From contig NZ_VXDB01000002.1 of the NCBI RefSeq assembly GCF_008711325.1, forward strand, positions 62,001 through 126,000: a stretch of DNA of 64,000 nucleotides, in the 5' to 3' direction. This document shows, one piece after another, positions 35,169 to 42,205 of this stretch. Below the pieces are notes generated by a model that made no database searches, was not told the DNA's origin, and was given only the letters and a program-made list of their open reading frames with translations. Made by a program: the position numbers and the translations under genes. Positions within the stretch are counted from its first letter, which is position 1; every line of letters begins with the position of its first letter. Origin of the DNA: Roseibium sediminis (GTDB taxonomy: Bacteria > Pseudomonadota > Alphaproteobacteria > Rhizobiales > Stappiaceae).

Positions 35169-35306
35169 GCTTTTGACGTCCCTGACTAGAGCTCGTCTCG
35201 CATTCACTGAATCACTCGACGTTCTCTAGATATTTGATTTGGCGCATTTCCTGACGGCGAACCGGTATCCACTTCGTCTGGAAAGGCTCTAGATGACGTC
35301 AAAAGC
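35169..35306. repeat. 12-base inverted repeat enclosing mobile repeat copy A
   Basis: GCTTTTGACGTC (35169..35180) and GACGTCAAAAGC (35295..35306) are perfect reverse complements flanking the 105-bp element. Without the element they would form a 12-pair hairpin with a loop of about 11 bases. Confidence 0.75.
35187..35291 (+). repeat. 105-bp mobile intergenic repeat, copy A
   Basis: It begins TAGAGCTCGTC and ends GGCTCTA, the same length as copies B and C and over 85 percent identical by eye. The core TTTCCTGACGGCGAACCGGT is shared by all three. The first 42 bases form a hairpin. Confidence 0.9.
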
Positions 35307-35321
35307 AGGCAGAATGATGGT

Positions 35322-36092
35322 TCAGGATTTCAGAACCAGAACCGCGGCATTGAACTCGGAACGCTTGTAGCTGCGCAGCTTGGCAGCTTCCGCGTCTTCG
35401 CCCCAGCGTTCGATGTTCCAGTCTTCCTCGATGAACGCCGCAGACCAGGCTTCATCTGCCGTCAGATGCTCGCCCAGCACTGCAAAGGCCAGCACGGCAG
35501 AGCCCATGAGCGTCGTCGCCGTGTGAAAGGCTGCCAATTGCAATGCAGTCAAGTCGCTCAGGCGAGTGCGAAAGGCTTTGAGCAAGGCGTCTGGTTGTTC
35601 CTTGTGAATGATGCCTTCGACAAGCACGAAGCGCGCACCAAGCTCCTGCCCTGCCCAGTCCAGAACAGGATCCCAGATCCGTGTTTGCCGTTCAACCAGG
35701 GTTTCCGGTTCATCGGCCCGATAACAGACCGCGTCATTGCCGAGGAAGCGCGTGATCTCGTCTGCCACTTCGGCAAACTTCTGCGAAACGGCATCTTGCG
35801 CGGAATTTGCGATCCGGGTCAGCGGCATGGCCCCGGGGTTGATTTCCTTTTCCTGCGCTTCCCATTCAGCAGCGACTGCTTCTGCCAGTACTGCGGACGG
35901 CAGGGTCAATGTCGACTTGGAGGGTGTCTTCACCGGGCGACCATCCAGATGAATGGCATATCCGCCCGCGATTTCTGCAGCCTCGGCCTTTTTGTAAAAC
36001 CGCTTGGGCAGCTCGCGGCGAGACAGTTCACGCGCACGCTGTTCCGGATCGCGCGCGGAAGCTTGTTCGATTTCTGACAAATAATCGCGCAT
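35322..36092 (-). CDS. ATP12-family F1-ATPase assembly chaperone
   Basis: A 256-residue protein starting at ATG 36092, which overlaps the stop of the HAD gene (TGATG). It has the ATP12 signature: RFYKKAEAAE, YAIHLDGRPVKTPSKSTLTLPS, LAEAVAAEWEAQ, NPGAMPLTRIANSA and LQLAAFHTATTLMGSAVLAFA. In mitochondria Atp12 binds the F1 alpha subunit during assembly; alphaproteobacterial homologues are assumed to act the same way. Coupling to a HAD phosphatase gene is a conserved order in the class. Confidence 0.93.
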   Translation of the reverse strand: MRDYLSEIEQASARDPEQRARELSRRELPKRFYKKAEAAEIAGGYAIHLDGRPVKTPSKSTLTLPSAVLAEAVAAEWEAQEKEINPGAMPLTRIANSAQDAVSQKFAEVADEITRFLGNDAVCYRADEPETLVERQTRIWDPVLDWAGQELGARFVLVEGIIHKEQPDALLKAFRTRLSDLTALQLAAFHTATTLMGSAVLAFAVLGEHLTADEAWSAAFIEEDWNIERWGEDAEAAKLRSYKRSEFNAAVLVLKS

Positions 36093-36772
36093 CAAGCAGG
36101 CTCTCTGTTCAGTTTAAGGCATTCGGAAATTGAGTCGAAGAGCTCATCGAAGTGATTGATAACATTGACAGCTCCGGAGCGGCGCAACGCATCTACTTCA
36201 TGATAGCCCCAGGAAACACCAATGGGTTGCGTGCGCCCGGCAAGGGCCATTTCCATATCGAAGGTCGTGTCGCCAATCATGACGGCCTTATCCGCCTCCA
36301 CGCCGGTTTCCGACAAGGCCCGAAGGATCATGTCCGGATGCGGTTTGGAGGGGGAAGTATCCGCCGTCTGGATCGTGACGAACCGGCCATGAAGGTCATG
36401 CACGTCCAGCATGTGGTCCACGCCGCGCCGCGCCTTGCCCGTGGCGATGCCGAGCAGAATGTCGTCGCGCTCGCGCAGCCGATCAAGCGCCTCGCGTGCG
36501 CCCGGATAGAGCGGATCTTCATCCGCACCGATCTGCCGTCTTGCGATCTTTGCTTCGCGGTACGCCTGGGCCATGTCGGGCGCAAGATGGGCATTGAGCG
36601 GACCAACCAGCGTTTCAAACGCCTGTACCAGCGAAAGGCCGACGATAGACAGCGCTGTCTGCCGGTCCGGCATCGGAAGCCCCACTGCGTCGAAGCCCAC
36701 TTCAAGGCCATGCAGGATCGTGTGCTGGCTGTCGATCAGGGTGCCGTCGCAATCAAATATGACGAGATACAT
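36092..36772 (-). CDS. HAD-family hydrolase, phosphoglycolate-phosphatase-like
   Basis: Start at ATG 36772 (MYLVIFDCDGTLIDS) gives 226 residues. FDCDGTLID is motif I, GIATGKARRG motif II, and SKPHPDMIL with GDTTFDMEMA motifs III and IV, with a helical cap between. It is translationally coupled to ATP12. It is preceded by a terminator (36843..36867), so despite the same orientation it is not transcribed from the outer-membrane protein gene. The substrate is unknown. Confidence 0.9.
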   Translation of the reverse strand: MYLVIFDCDGTLIDSQHTILHGLEVGFDAVGLPMPDRQTALSIVGLSLVQAFETLVGPLNAHLAPDMAQAYREAKIARRQIGADEDPLYPGAREALDRLRERDDILLGIATGKARRGVDHMLDVHDLHGRFVTIQTADTSPSKPHPDMILRALSETGVEADKAVMIGDTTFDMEMALAGRTQPIGVSWGYHEVDALRRSGAVNVINHFDELFDSISECLKLNREPA

Positions 36773-36842
36773 ATGGGCTGCTTTCCGGTTCTCTTTCGGA
36801 GGACCGCATGTCGCCTTTTTTTGGTGTTGGGTCAAGGGAAAG

Positions 36843-36867
36843 AAAAACGCCGACCCAAAGGCCGGCG
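36843..36867 (-). terminator. Terminator after the outer-membrane protein gene
   Basis: On the minus strand CGCCGGCC, loop TTTG, GGTCGGCG then TTTTT; eight pairs with one G-T. It lies between mobile repeat copy B and the HAD start codon. Confidence 0.82.
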
Positions 36868-36902
36868 CCGTCTTGCAACGGAATGTGCCGCGTGCCCGCT
36901 CC

Positions 36903-37007
36903 TGGAGCCCGTCTCACATTCACTGAAGCACTCGACGTGCTCCAGATATTTGGTTTGGCGTATTTCCTGACGGCGAACCGGTATCCACTTCGCCTGGAAA
37001 GGCTCTA
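36903..37007 (+). repeat. 105-bp mobile intergenic repeat, copy B
   Basis: It begins TGGAGCCCGTC and ends GGCTCTA. Its internal stem changed together (TGGAG pairs with CTCCA, versus TAGAG with CTCTA in copies A and C). Its last bases include the TAG stop codon of the outer-membrane protein gene. Confidence 0.9.
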
Positions 37008-37733
37008 GAACCTGTAGGTCGCGCGTGCCATCAATGACCCGCCCCATGCATTTCCAAGTTCATAAGCTCCGATTGCCTGGGTGGTCGTCCCGAACTGACG
37101 AGAATCCCCTGTTCTGAACTTGCCGTAATAGTCCAGATTTGCGCCGAGTTTGAGCTCGAATGCCTCGGTAAGTGCGTGGCTGACTTCAACACCGCCACGG
37201 GCAGCAAAGCCTGTTTGCGTGTGACTATCGACAGTTGCGTATGCGACCCTGGTCGTTTCCGGGCTTTCATCAATATCCGACAAGCGGTTGATGGATAAAC
37301 CCAGACCCGCAATGGCCGAAACAGACGTAGATGAGCTTACATCCATGGAGTAGCTGACATTTGCCAATATGACATGGGATTGCGCTTCACCGTCAAAGCG
37401 CGCGCGCTGGGATGCTCGGGGAAACGCCGCGAACCAGCGAACATCTCCGCCGACATAATCGTAGCTCATGAAGACGCCAAGCGCGGATGAGAACTGGTAT
37501 CCGACTCGGCCACCAACGGTGAGTGCGGTATCAAACTTCACATCTGACACAGTGCCGGTAAATGAAGCGCCACCGTTTTTCGTGTCGCTGGTGGCTGATC
37601 GGAAGGATGCACCGGCTCCGATATCCGCGAACCAACCCTGCTCTGCGGGTTCGGCTGCTGCAGTTCCACCGGCCACGGCGGCTGTAATTAGTGCGGCAAG
37701 AATGCCTGTACGGACGAGTGTTTTTGTGGCCAT
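37005..37733 (-). CDS. Outer-membrane beta-barrel protein
   Basis: A 242-residue protein with a signal peptide (residues 1-27, cleavage near AAA/EP). The mature part alternates aromatic and polar residues in strand-length segments (FADIGAGASFRSA, LTVGGRVGYQFSSALGVFMSYDYVGGD, FELKLGANLDYYG) and ends with ARATYRF, a C-terminal aromatic typical of BamA-inserted barrels. About eight to ten strands fit an OmpA/OmpW-like porin fold. Its stop codon sits at the boundary of mobile repeat copy B. It interrupts the common rluC-HAD-ATP12 order. Confidence 0.85.
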   Translation of the reverse strand: MATKTLVRTGILAALITAAVAGGTAAAEPAEQGWFADIGAGASFRSATSDTKNGGASFTGTVSDVKFDTALTVGGRVGYQFSSALGVFMSYDYVGGDVRWFAAFPRASQRARFDGEAQSHVILANVSYSMDVSSSTSVSAIAGLGLSINRLSDIDESPETTRVAYATVDSHTQTGFAARGGVEVSHALTEAFELKLGANLDYYGKFRTGDSRQFGTTTQAIGAYELGNAWGGSLMARATYRF

Positions 37734-37924
37734 GTCAAAACCTTGACGTGATTGACGATCCTAACTTTCTCCTAGGCGATTCCTGATCTCGCAGCCAGCG
37801 TGAATTTCTACCTGTAATTGCATTTTCGTGAGAATTTCACGCTATCGGGGCGAAAGGGTTTTCGCTCGACACAGACGCTCGCAGACCCTACGAAGAGGCC
37901 ATCTGCTGAGAGGATATCTGCCGC

Positions 37925-38095
37925 GTGACCAAAATCATCATGCTTCTGCTGCTGTGTATTGCCGCCATTCAGGTGATCCGGCCTCTTGGTTGGCCGGGTC
38001 TGAAAAAGCGTGCAGACGCGTGGAAGCTGGTTGCAGGCACAGTCGCCCTGACCTTCGCCATGCTTGTGCTCACTGCGTTGTTTCAGGGGCTGTAG
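37925..38095 (+). CDS. 56-residue membrane protein
   Basis: The frame opens at GTG 37925 behind GAGAGGA and reads VTKIIMLLLLCIAAIQ, then VIRPLGWPGLKKRADAWK and a second hydrophobic helix ending TALFQGL at TAG 38093. The two-helix hairpin with the RPLGWPGLKKR turn is reminiscent of small membrane proteins beside rluC in other Rhizobiales, by my recollection. It is convergent with rluC. Its function is unknown. Confidence 0.72.
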   Translation: MTKIIMLLLLCIAAIQVIRPLGWPGLKKRADAWKLVAGTVALTFAMLVLTALFQGL

Positions 38096-38131
38096 CTCGC
38101 CTTGGGGCCTGTTGCCTAATCGATAGCCGAC

Positions 38132-39133
38132 TTATTCCGGGTCATCTGCTTCCGGATCATAATCCGAGACATCGAAGCCCAGCAGGTTCCAGGTCTGCTG
38201 CATGTGCGGCGGCAGGGGAGCAGACACATCGATCATGCCGTGTCCGGAGGGATGCGGGATAACGATCCGGCGCGCGAGAAGGTGCAGCCGGTTCTGGATG
38301 CCACCCGGCAGCTCCCAGTTCTCGATGTTGAAATACTTGTCGTCACCAATGATCGGATGTCCGATATGCGCTGCATGGGCGCGCAGCTGGTGCGTGCGGC
38401 CCGTGACCGGCTTCAAGGTCACCCAGGACAGCTTCTGGCCCGACTTTTCAAAGACGGAATAGAGCGAAACTGCGTGCTGGGCTTCATCATCGCCGTGACG
38501 GGCAACCCGCATGCGCTCTTCTTCCTCGCTCCGGGCAAGGTAAGTCGAAATCCGGCCCTGGAACGGCTTGGGGACGCCAGCTAGAATGGCCCAGTAGATC
38601 TTGCGGGTATTGCGATGGCGGAAGGACTTGGTCAGCTCCTGTGCGGCCTTGCGCGTCTTGGCCACAAGGATGATGCCCGAGGTCTCGCGGTCGAGACGGT
38701 GGACGAGCTTCGGCTTTTCGCCCTTCTGGTTGGTGAAGGCGTCCAGCATGCCATCCAGATGGCGCTTGAGGCCGGACCCGCCCTGCACGGCAAGACCTGC
38801 GGGCTTGTTCAGCACCATTACATGATTGTCTTCAAACAGCATCATGTCCTCAATGGCGGCGCGGTCATCGGCCACCAGCTTTGAGGACTTCGGGCGGGCG
38901 TTCTTCTTGTCATCTGCAGCCAGCTCGACACCGAGTGGCGGAATGCGGACGATCTGCCCCTTTGCAATGCGTGTGTTGCTTTCCGCGCGCTTGCCATCGA
39001 TACGCACCTGACCGGTACGCAGCAGCTTTTGCAGGCGACCGAAGCCAAGCCCCGGATAGTGGGCCTTGAACCAGCGATCGAGACGCATGCCCGCTTCATC
39101 TGCGGTAACTGTTTTCTGCTCAATGGCGGACAT
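38132..39133 (-). CDS. rluC: RluC-like 23S rRNA pseudouridine synthase
   Basis: Start at ATG 39133 (MSAIEQKTVTADEAGMRLDRW) gives 333 residues. An S4 RNA-binding domain (LQKLLRTGQVRIDGKRAE, ending VRIPPL as in RluC rather than RluD) precedes the catalytic domain, with LVHRLDRETSGIIL containing the catalytic aspartate and LKPVTGRTHQLRAHAA. RluC converts three uridines of 23S rRNA to pseudouridine. The S4 ending is my basis for choosing RluC; assignment within the RluA family is moderately sure. Confidence 0.88.
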   Translation of the reverse strand: MSAIEQKTVTADEAGMRLDRWFKAHYPGLGFGRLQKLLRTGQVRIDGKRAESNTRIAKGQIVRIPPLGVELAADDKKNARPKSSKLVADDRAAIEDMMLFEDNHVMVLNKPAGLAVQGGSGLKRHLDGMLDAFTNQKGEKPKLVHRLDRETSGIILVAKTRKAAQELTKSFRHRNTRKIYWAILAGVPKPFQGRISTYLARSEEEERMRVARHGDDEAQHAVSLYSVFEKSGQKLSWVTLKPVTGRTHQLRAHAAHIGHPIIGDDKYFNIENWELPGGIQNRLHLLARRIVIPHPSGHGMIDVSAPLPPHMQQTWNLLGFDVSDYDPEADDPE

Positions 39134-39244
39134 GATCGTTCTTTCGTGTGATGCGGTATCAAAGGCGCGGGTTTCCGCGCGGCCCCGTTCGGGCATGAGT
39201 TGCCACGCGTATACGCAACAATTGCCCCAGTGAAAAGGGGCGGA

Positions 39245-39631
39245 TCAGGCCGAGCCCAGGCTTCTCATCAAAAAGAGGCCTGCAAAGACCGCCACAAGTG
39301 ACAAAATCACCGAGGCGGCAATGTAGATCATGGCCAGCATCGTATCCCCGCGCTCCCACAATACAGCCGTATCCAGCGAGAATGCAGAGAAGGTCGTGAA
39401 CCCGCCGAGAATGCCCGTTGCCACGAAATAGAGCAGCGATTGCATGCCTGCGCCCTCATGGCGGACAAGCCAGCCGATGAAGAGCCCCATGACAAGGGAG
39501 CCGATGATATTGACGCTCAAGGTGCCAACCGGAAAGCCGGGTCCAAACGCACGCAAGGTGCCAAGGGACACCAGATGACGCAGGCCCGCGCCAATTCCGC
39601 CGCCGAGCATGACGAGAAGCAGGTGATTCAT
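39245..39631 (-). CDS. crcB: CrcB/Fluc fluoride ion channel
   Basis: A 128-residue protein with four membrane helices: GGGIGAGLRHLVS, GTLSVNIIGSLVMGLFIG with the conserved Asn, GILGGFTTFSAFSLD with the fluoride-path Phe and Thr/Ser, and a last helix. Dual-topology dimers export fluoride. No fluoride riboswitch is visible in the 50 bases before it. The repeat copy C lies just upstream. Confidence 0.93.
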   Translation of the reverse strand: MNHLLLVMLGGGIGAGLRHLVSLGTLRAFGPGFPVGTLSVNIIGSLVMGLFIGWLVRHEGAGMQSLLYFVATGILGGFTTFSAFSLDTAVLWERGDTMLAMIYIAASVILSLVAVFAGLFLMRSLGSA

Positions 39632-39684
39632 ACGCGGATTATAGCGGGCCGATGCCTTGCTGCCAGCGATGATCTTGCGCCCGT

Positions 39685-39789
39685 TAGAGTATTTCCAGGC
39701 GAAGTGGATACCGGTTCGCCGTCAGGAAATGCGCCAAATCAAATATTTAGAGCACGTCGAGTGATACAGTGAATGCGAGACGTGCTCTA
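39685..39789 (-). repeat. 105-bp mobile intergenic repeat, copy C
   Basis: Reversed relative to A and B; on the minus strand it starts TAGAGCACGTC and ends ACTCTA. Its first 42 bases carry an 11-pair perfect stem (TAGAGCACGTC/GACGTGCTCTA). Flanks CCGT and ACGG around TA rejoin to the palindrome CCGTTAACGG. Confidence 0.9.
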
Positions 39790-39802: not shown

Positions 39803-42205
39803 TCAGGCCACGTAATCGACCGGGTCGCTCACGCGCTCCGCGGTCGCCATGGCCTCGATTTTGCGCTCGACCGTATCCATTTCGGCTCCAATCGTGCGCA
39901 GGTATGGCCGCTCCTCATCCAGTATGGCACGGAAAATGTCGTGCTTGAGTTTCAGCAAGCGGTCCGGGTCGATCTCGATATCATCGGAGGCCGACAGCAC
40001 GATGGAAATCAACCGCTCTGCCGTGTTCAATCGTCCCCAAAGATAGTCATGTTCGCGCCAGCTGCGATTGAAGAAGGCTCCAAAAGTGTTGAGTGCCTTG
40101 CCCTTCAGCTCGAACCCTTCCTCCTGAAGGGAGGTCGCGTCCTTGGGGCTGATCCGGTCGACAAGCGTTTCGCCGACTTCTGCAAAATCATTTCCCTGCA
40201 GGCCGGGGAAAATCACCAGATCATAGAAGGCATAGCCGATATAGGCCTCGATGAGCCGCTTGTACCAGTCGCCTTCAAGCATGTGGGCCGCGACATCCGA
40301 CAGGATTTCATCCTGCCAGGCGTCCAGCTCGGGAAGGCGCATTTGACCGGCGAGCATCTTCAGGAAAACCACCAGCGCACCCAGCCGTGCCCCTTCCGTG
40401 CCGGTCTGGCAGACTTCAGCAAGATTTCGCGCAGCGTCGCTGACTTCCGGTTCGAAGAAGGCACCCGTCCAGCGCGCCTGAAGCAGGTCGATCTGTTCAT
40501 ACAGTCGGCTCTTCAACTGGTCGAACTGGATGCGGGCCCCCTCGCCATCCATCAGCGCGGCCCGTTCCTGATAGAAGCTGTTCAGCCTGCGGATGGTGAA
40601 GCGAAGCCGGCGAATGCGGTAATCGACATCGAACTGTTTCAGGAAGTGAATGATGGCGGGCGACGGTTTCAGGTTTCCCCCGCCCGGCAGGTTGGACAAG
40701 GTGTCCAGGTAGCCGTTGATCAACCCCACCCAGTCGTATTCAAACGTGTCGTCCGGCTCTGGGTTGGCAAGCTCGCGCAGCAGAGCGGCCAGACTGTCGG
40801 AGATCGCGTGCAGCTTCTGGCTCTGATAATTGAGATAGGCATATCCGGCCTGCTCATGCGCCATGGCATTTGCCTTTTCGCGGCAGCTGGACATGGTCTC
40901 GGGCTTCATACGCCCCCAAAGTGGCAGGATCTTGCGAACGGCAGGTGCAGCAACGGGGTCAACGGCTGAAATTGTATGGGCGAGCCAACGGCTGCGGCGG
41001 TTGCCCGCCTCGATTTCCATCAGGTCGTCGCCCACAGGCTCGTTGCGCGGAATATGGGCGAGAGACGCAAGAATGACACGGAAGAACCCCGGGAGCTCCT
41101 CAAGATCGTTCGGCGCGCCCTTGCGGTCCACCGGAACAGGATCGACATAGACCAGCCGCCGGGCGACTTCTCGCGTTGCCGGACGTTGCCGCACCACTTC
41201 GATCACAGGTGCAAAGGGCTTGTTCATGACCACGCTGCCATCCACAAAGCAGTGGTGGGCCGCCTTCTCGCCGGTCAGCTCCAAACGCCGCTTTAGGAAC
41301 TTTTCGCGGTTTGGCCAGATTTCGCCGCGCTCATCCAGAACCTTGTCCATCTCGGCGATGGTTGCGGGCGGAAAGGCTCCCGGAAAGGAGGATGTCGCCC
41401 GGGCTGCAAAGACGAGTTCCGGGGCCGCACGGCTATCCAGTTCGCTTTCCAGATCGCCCGTGGCGCGGTGTCGTGCCTTGAAATTGAGGATGCGTCGGTG
41501 GTCCCACTCCTCGATGAAAGCAGGATCATCAATCCGGATCTTGCGGCATCGCCCGTGATAGTCGGTGATGGTAACAAAGAGATCGAGTGCCTGGCCTTGC
41601 GGGATCAGCGTTGCGCCCGGCTCCGCCCCCTCCTCCATCTTCTGGTAGGCATCCAGCATCCAGCTGATATAGGCCTCACCGGAAAAGGGCGGCGTGAACC
41701 ACCGTGACTGCATGAAGAGCCGCAATTTCTCGCGGGTTTCAGGCTCCGTAATCTGACGATTGAGCTGGGACGAGATCACCCGGTTGAGCACGGGGCTGAC
41801 CCCTGACTTCAGGTATCGGGTCAATCCGTCCTGGGGCCTTGCAAGCTCCGTGACATCGGCGTGTTTCAGCCACAGGTCCCGATGGCTATCCAGCGGCAGG
41901 TCATGCGCGATGGCTCGCGCCAGCATGACACCATTGACGCCTCCGGCCGACGCGCCGGCAATGGCATCCACCACCACCCGCAAACGCACGGTTTCGCCGA
42001 CGGCTTCCAAAAGCGCCGCGTAGGCCTTTTCCGACGGAGACAAGGCTCGGCACTCTTCGGGAGTAAATGGGCGGTTCGGTTTGGGGGCGCGGGAAGCGCA
42101 GGCTCGAACAAGTGAGAGGATTTCCCGGCTGACCCCATGCATGTAGATGGCAAGGGAAACACCGCCGTAAAACACCAGAGCCAAGCGCAGTTCTATTTCC
42201 CTCAT
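39803..42205 (-). CDS. Large patatin-like phospholipase
   Basis: An 800-residue protein. Residues 1-380 are a patatin domain: LALVFYGGVSLAIYMHG is the oxyanion-hole segment, VDAIAGASAGGVNGVML contains the GxSxG nucleophile serine, and CFVDGSVVMNKPF carries the catalytic Asp of the Ser-Asp dyad. The C-terminal half is mainly helical, as in the long TIGR03607/DUF3376-type patatins. No signal peptide is present, so it is cytoplasmic or peripherally membrane-bound. It lies between rarA (26 bases upstream) and crcB. Lipid substrate unknown. Confidence 0.9.
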   Translation of the reverse strand: MREIELRLALVFYGGVSLAIYMHGVSREILSLVRACASRAPKPNRPFTPEECRALSPSEKAYAALLEAVGETVRLRVVVDAIAGASAGGVNGVMLARAIAHDLPLDSHRDLWLKHADVTELARPQDGLTRYLKSGVSPVLNRVISSQLNRQITEPETREKLRLFMQSRWFTPPFSGEAYISWMLDAYQKMEEGAEPGATLIPQGQALDLFVTITDYHGRCRKIRIDDPAFIEEWDHRRILNFKARHRATGDLESELDSRAAPELVFAARATSSFPGAFPPATIAEMDKVLDERGEIWPNREKFLKRRLELTGEKAAHHCFVDGSVVMNKPFAPVIEVVRQRPATREVARRLVYVDPVPVDRKGAPNDLEELPGFFRVILASLAHIPRNEPVGDDLMEIEAGNRRSRWLAHTISAVDPVAAPAVRKILPLWGRMKPETMSSCREKANAMAHEQAGYAYLNYQSQKLHAISDSLAALLRELANPEPDDTFEYDWVGLINGYLDTLSNLPGGGNLKPSPAIIHFLKQFDVDYRIRRLRFTIRRLNSFYQERAALMDGEGARIQFDQLKSRLYEQIDLLQARWTGAFFEPEVSDAARNLAEVCQTGTEGARLGALVVFLKMLAGQMRLPELDAWQDEILSDVAAHMLEGDWYKRLIEAYIGYAFYDLVIFPGLQGNDFAEVGETLVDRISPKDATSLQEEGFELKGKALNTFGAFFNRSWREHDYLWGRLNTAERLISIVLSASDDIEIDPDRLLKLKHDIFRAILDEERPYLRTIGAEMDTVERKIEAMATAERVSDPVDYVA

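Follow-up and report, generated by a model that had tools for sequence, protein, structure and literature searches.

The RIME repeats of rhizobia, attributed to Osteras et al. (1995), are reportedly intergenic, palindromic and ~105 bp long. RIMEs are among the repeats of Sinorhizobium meliloti (PMC2573895; this and the other sources cited by PMC number are represented here by the parts of their text that were available). Bru-RS1 and Bru-RS2 of Brucella (Halling and Bricker 1994) are 103–106 bp long (PMC10800456, PMC2267715), and the CcrM-associated intergenic repeats (CIR; Chen and Shapiro 2003) are ~110 bp long, with two arms, a linker and TA termini (PMC2229807). In the CIR repeats one of the arms has GANTC at its loop, and in the available text of the review that covers them no terminal inverted repeat (TIR) is listed and their mobility mechanism is treated as unsettled (PMC2229807). 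RUP of Streptococcus pneumoniae is a 107-bp miniature inverted-repeat transposable element (MITE) that sits at TA and has TIRs like those of IS630-Spn1 (PMC2229807). Here, we describe a 105-bp repeat with three copies, A, B and C, in a 64,000-nt stretch of the draft genome of Roseibium sediminis (assembly GCF_008711325.1, contig NZ_VXDB01000002.1, positions 62,001–126,000, forward strand), hereafter the window, in whose numbering the coordinates are given. We judge, with a probability of roughly 0.84, that this repeat is a MITE that derives from an insertion sequence (IS) of the IS630 family and duplicates TA.

The Bru-RS repeats are, like the Roseibium element, palindromic and intergenic, and they are used by an IS with YTAR targets; the likeness is one of length and plan, and an IS630 origin is not stated for Bru-RS in the available text. 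RIME likewise resembles the element in length and plan, and S. meliloti has a member of the present family (L166). The element shares with CIR its two arms and a GANTC, which in the element is sited where the 5′ repeats of IS630s have it, a likeness by plan; unlike CIR as reviewed, it has a TIR and a TA duplication (PMC2229807). RUP differs in its host and its IS, and no DNA motif is reported in it in the available part of the review; the relation to IS630 that we propose for the element is of the kind published for RUP (PMC2229807).

The Repeat Family in Roseibium sediminis

The original prediction of three equally long repeats was borne out: each copy is 105 bp, the copies align with zero indels and lie at the predicted places, and all contain TTTCCTGACGGCGAACCGGT. 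It also had two of the three copies beginning and ending with TA, as copies A and C do, while copy B runs from TG to TA. A genome-wide search, which had been suggested at the same time, found at least 40 copies by blastn (40 of 67 candidates scored). With a covariance model built from those 40 copies there were matches at no fewer than 59 places at E < 1e-3, at least 55 of them at E < 1e-8; 150 of the 2366 first-look candidates were scored, so that 59 is a lower bound, and the weakest few of these places are decayed or doubtful. The 40 blastn copies and the 59 covariance-model places together indicate that the repeats are not due to chance. The 40 aligned copies diverge from their consensus by 0–17% (mean 5.3%). 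The element is thus short and multi-copy and has no transposase gene of its own, as is expected of a MITE.

IS630 as the Probable Source of the Element

IS630 transposase genes (PF13358) were found in 82 of 199 genomes of the order and in 20 of 45 Roseibium genomes. Sixty-one alphaproteobacterial loci were fetched (30 from the order, 20 from the genus and 11 from a phylum search), and both ends were definable in 30 ISs; the other 31 loci were excluded as truncated, decayed or belonging to other types. The 30 ISs came from 16 of the 30 order loci, with a further 3 that had variant ends, from 5 of the 20 Roseibium loci and from 6 of the 11 further alphaproteobacterial loci. They are 1042–1058 bp long, start with TA-GAGC or a close variant and have a 25-nt terminal repeat. 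The ends in Hyphomicrobiales read TA-GAGC...GCTC-TA, and two ISs checked by Pfam were both HTH_Tnp_IS630/DDE_3. An IS630-family transposase with TAGAGC ends, which the original prediction proposed to look for, is present in the order and the genus, but not in this genome.

The left 25 bases of the element match the 5′ terminal repeat of these ~1.05-kb IS630s (TA-GAGC...GANTC). When positions 5–25 were scored with matrices, the controls being 5443 GAGC sites from 51 Roseibium and related loci, the left end scored against the 5′ TIR matrix was equalled by a single control site. Family members from Bradyrhizobium, Xanthobacter and Rhizobium ACO-34A have left ends that outscored all 5443 controls, and the left ends of others were poor matches (e.g., Maq1, 331; G242b, 248; G113a, 303 of 5443). 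The first 10 nt of the right end, GAGCATTTCC, start an end of one of the 30 ISs, a Roseibium IS (L202). In another genome of the order, G082, a MITE abuts an IS630 (L173), and the right end of that MITE has the first 11 nt of the TIR of this IS.

These similarities suggest that the family, of 101 bp plus a duplicated TA, derives from the ends of an IS630-family IS. An IS630-type transposase would move the element in trans, inserting it at TA in YTAR-like sites and duplicating the TA. In this view the 5′ end of an IS630, folding back upon itself, would have given the left hairpin of the element, and the other end probably the right one; an IS630 now gone from this genome probably moved the copies.

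Insertion at TA

The flanks of the Roseibium copies are mostly Y-TA...TA-R. Among the 40 copies, the base before the left TA was C in 28, T in 10 and A in 2 (Y in 38/40), and the base after the right TA was G in 25, A in 12, T in 2 and C in 1 (R in 37/40). Empty sites were available for two related elements. In Sinorhizobium sp. K101 the element lies between two TAs, the right one mutated to TG, and the corresponding site in pSymB of S. meliloti Ak57 (CTAG) has a single TA. In Rhizobium sp. ACO-34A an element splits an MFS transporter gene that has a single TA at this site in R. lusitanum, the two being ~78% identical. The comparison of empty with occupied sites that the original prediction proposed thus gave one TA against two in both cases and, together with the matching IS630 5′ TIR, supports its suggestion that an IS630/Tc1-type transposase inserted the repeats at TA as MITEs.

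The same target would also suit an IS5-family transposase similar to IS711, which could move the elements with a TA duplication too; insertion of IS711 leaves the TA of YTAR duplicated, and this IS favors Bru-RS repeats (PMC2266754). The terminal-repeat match is nevertheless to IS630, in a comparison that was one-sided, as no search for the IS5-family transposases of the genome was made, and serving as a target of IS711 does not make repeats derivatives of IS711. We regard this origin as highly improbable. We give even less credence to movement by a RAYT (Y1 HUH) transposase, in the manner of repetitive extragenic palindromic (REP)-like elements. The Roseibium repeats are palindromic, intergenic and multi-copy, and this genome has a single Y1_Tnp gene. 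That IS200-like gene (L071) is flanked by other hairpins, CCTCCACC..GGTGGAGG; no copy of the element is listed within its locus, and the nearest on its contig is ~12 kb away. To our knowledge RAYTs do not duplicate TA, in conflict with the duplication seen at the empty sites.

Several points weigh against an IS630-derived MITE. No DDE_3 was detected in this genome, in which the best tblastn relative of a Roseibium IS630 had an E value of 0.026, and our confidence is lowered because of this lack of a transposase, even though a relic MITE does not require one. Without positions 21–25 the left end was equalled by 55 of the 5443 controls, and the right end matched the 3′ matrix weakly, being equalled by 111. 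The GANTC of the left end is missing from two of the three window copies and from 7 of the 40 genome copies. No alignable empty site was found for any Roseibium copy, the nearest species being at most 71% identical in ATP12 at the amino acid level.

Other aspects of the insertion sites were less informative. The neighboring RluC gene has its best hits in Roseibium, at 91%. No shared insertions were seen beside the neighboring genes in 51 RluC loci of Roseibium and its kin (L079–L129), some of which miss part of the three sites (e.g., L108, L116 and L120) and whose intergenic regions have diverged beyond alignment. Nothing clear came from looking for restored reading frames across the 40 copies. 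Copy A (L001, window positions 35169–35306) and a second copy, L002, both lie in the loops of perfect inverted repeats, and the flank of L002 is a terminator-like GGGCCC stem with runs of A and T. The joined flanks folded to a mean of −16.1 kcal/mol, compared to −15.2 (standard deviation 0.4), with 0 of 200 re-pairings as low. A plain count of flank complementarity was not significant (562 of 5000 as high), and insertion into hairpin loops as a rule was dropped on this account despite the folding result.

Three copies that lie close to contig ends are followed by an identical or similar sequence, CAGGCTGCTGAA..., which starts exactly at the right-hand CTAG/CTAA. This sequence is probably the end of an IS, and by analogy with Bru-RS and IS711 another IS may use the repeats as its target.

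Hairpins and Distribution of the Family

The element consists of a TA, a left hairpin (positions 1–42), a T-rich linker, a right hairpin (58–101) and a TA. The original prediction described the left stem, and its 11-bp TAGAGCACGTC/GACGTGCTCTA is indeed perfect in copy C, and in copy B the second stem pair is G-C, not A-T, the paired change that had been pointed out. It had missed the right hairpin and a small inner stem in the left one. Folding of single copies was significant for copy B (z −2.9) and copy C (z −3.5) and not for copy A (z −0.4).

The covariation claimed for the hairpin is modest within the genome and holds across lineages. Within the genome, 94.5% of cells were paired versus 94.0% in shuffles, and double changes were seen at 5 pairs in 7 cells, shuffles being as high in 7, 16 and 2 of 500. 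When 23 members of the family from 21 genomes were folded one by one, at least three Watson-Crick types were seen at each of stem positions 7–13 of the left hairpin. The left hairpin is therefore real, with a sequence that turns over between lineages.

The 105-bp subfamily had no blastn match in 44 sister Roseibium species, except for one partial match in each of three, and a search of the GTDB r220 collection, which possibly does not include the source genome, gave no match to an exact 21-mer from the left arm. The genus does have related two-hairpin elements that differ in sequence (13 core matches in genome G043 and 2 in G013). Given this near-absence from the sister genomes and the relatives of other sequence in the genus, the Roseibium subfamily is a lineage-specific burst.

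The right half and the two-hairpin plan of the element recur across Hyphomicrobiales. A plasmid search with the element matched 97 records, 6 of which covered at least 80% of it, and in most of the 60 matches listed the right part alone was matched. By organism name the hosts were 96 Hyphomicrobiales and one Asticcacaulis, some of the genera being ones that we take to belong to the order. Genome G082 had 128 matches to the core motif at no more than one mismatch, some of them in tandem at a spacing of ~111–113 bp (e.g., on contig C351). On a Rhizobium plasmid (L159, compared with L164 and L165) a 62–63-bp right-half element follows a fumarylacetoacetate hydrolase gene and is not found there in other strains. 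It may be a smaller unit that moves or what a deletion left behind, and the 62-bp half-element of R. leguminosarum was set aside as ambiguous empty-site evidence.

The presence of two conserved hairpins raised the possibility that the repeats are kept for a role in RNA, as hairpins at mRNA ends or as small RNAs (sRNAs), and that their mobility is incidental. The Brucella sRNA family BASRCI27 (Rfam RF02600) matched two related elements (L232 and L225) over both hairpins, at 56.3 and 43.7 bits, both below its gathering score of 59.8, and copy B of the window scored 21.8 bits. We consider a general RNA role unlikely, as the stem sequences vary between lineages, divergence within the genome reaches 17%, and the subfamily is missing from the sister species apart from the partial matches noted above. 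Single copies may have acquired such a role, and the annotated BASRCI27 sRNA is probably a transcribed relative.

GANTC Sites in IS630 and in the Repeat

GANTC, the CcrM site, occupies positions 21–25 of the 5′ repeat in all 30 defined IS630s and the same place of the 3′ repeat in none. A second GANTC lies at 26–36 in 25 of the 30 and a third at 48–66 in 27, ahead of an ATG at ~78–95. The first 66 nt of the ISs hold 86 sites, their 27,443 interior nt hold 6 and their last 70 nt hold 12. The spaced triple occurred in 23 of the 61 alphaproteobacterial IS630 loci, all 23 of them among the 30 defined ISs, in 0 of 16 other IS630 loci and in 0 of 109 control loci (947 kb). Because the transposase parts of 24 ISs had a median of only 56% of residues in common (38 to 92), recent descent alone is not enough to account for it.

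One could suppose that the GANTC of the 5′ repeat is a contact for the transposase and unrelated to CcrM. Its fixed place in the repeat would fit this, as would the second and third sites, which are nearly all GATTC (25/25 and 25/27), N being free at the first site only. At that first site, however, N takes all four bases (A in 23, G in 3, T in 3 and C in 1) while G, A, T and C are invariant in 30/30, and a contact would not account for the 3′ repeat being without the site, or for the crowding of sites into the first 66 nt. In addition, six clear-ended IS630s outside the class have one GANTC in total in their 5′ 66 nt (three have sites at 74–95). A role as a contact only is thus doubtful in our view, although less so than the other alternatives considered here.

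We somewhat favor the explanation that the triple GANTC (at 21, ~32 and ~55 from the 5′ end, the first within the terminal repeat) couples IS630 transposition in CcrM-bearing Alphaproteobacteria to replication, and that the first site was passed on to the MITEs, among them probably CIR, Bru-RS and RIME. Through CcrM methylation, GANTC in the 5′ repeat would couple transposase expression and/or use of the ends to replication, and GANTC would control the IS630 transposase. CcrM sites time promoters in Caulobacter (PMC4287350). The RAMA domain of CcrM is present in one protein of the Roseibium genome and, among 14 named control genomes, was found only in Caulobacter. A comparable arrangement is known from Tn10 and Tn5 (IS10/IS50), in which Dam control involves methylation sites in the terminal repeat and the transposase promoter (PMC5390034). 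The IS630s differ in having GANTC instead of GATC, and the evidence here is that of sequence; by analogy, the coupling would parallel the control of Tn10 by Dam but have arisen independently and be based on CcrM. The GANTC of the IS630 5′ repeat could also explain that of the CIR repeats.

The count of 30 ISs is qualified by their kinship, which makes them fewer than 30 independent cases, and by the end-picking score of the 5 Roseibium ISs, which favored G at 21 and C at 25. Within the window only copy A keeps the site, which has become GAAGC in copy B and GTATC in copy C. In the left arm, GANTC is present in 33 of the 40 genome copies and 13 of the 23 family members, and so absent from 7 and 10, respectively. 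These losses, and our estimate that drift at a mean column identity of 94% would leave the site in roughly 33/40 copies, argue against the site having a function within the MITE.

Copies and Neighboring Genes in the Window

The features of the window, and the copies that adjoin the putative IS end, are listed in Table 1.

Table 1. Repeat copies, their parts and the genes next to them.
Feature	Position	Strand	Remarks
Copy A	35187..35291	+	105 bp including TA at both ends (101 bp between the TAs)
Copy B	36903..37007	+	105 bp; TG in place of left TA, right end TA
Copy C	39685..39789	-	105 bp including TA at both ends
Left hairpin of copy A	35187..35228	+	Family consensus of first 25 nt after TA matches IS630-family 5′ TIR
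Right hairpin of copy A	35244..35287	+	Core ACCGGTATCCACTT
GAATC (GANTC, CcrM site) in copy A	35209..35213	+	TIR positions 21–25
Left arm of 12-bp perfect inverted repeat flanking copy A	35169..35180	+	GCTTTTGACGTC; copy A sits in its loop
Right arm of inverted repeat flanking copy A	35295..35306	+	GACGTCAAAAGC
ATP12 chaperone gene	35322..36095	-	PF07542; adjoins copy A
HAD-family hydrolase gene	36092..36772	-	PF13419; between copies A and B; ATG start assumed
Outer-membrane beta-barrel gene	37005..37733	-	Stop codon is the final three bases of copy B
CrcB gene	39245..39631	-	Adjoins copy C
Patatin-like phospholipase gene	39803..42205	-	Adjoins copy C
Copies with CAGGCTGCTGAA junction	L013, L015, L038		Ends of contigs C42, C34 and C46 of the same genome

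Significance

The repeat represents a new subfamily within a known kind of element, and the new points are its proposed IS630 source and the triple-GANTC module. In the literature that we saw, IS630 is linked neither with Bru-RS, RIME or CIR nor with GANTC, which is weak evidence of novelty given that subscription papers were thinly covered. With an IS630 origin, a widespread class of alphaproteobacterial repeats gains both a source and a mechanism of mobility, for which, in the available text, a 2007 review wanted more information (PMC2229807), and why these repeats carry CcrM sites becomes a testable question. If the coupling to replication is true, methylation-timed transposition would have evolved separately with CcrM, and inheritance from IS630 would explain the conserved methylation sites of alphaproteobacterial intergenic repeats.

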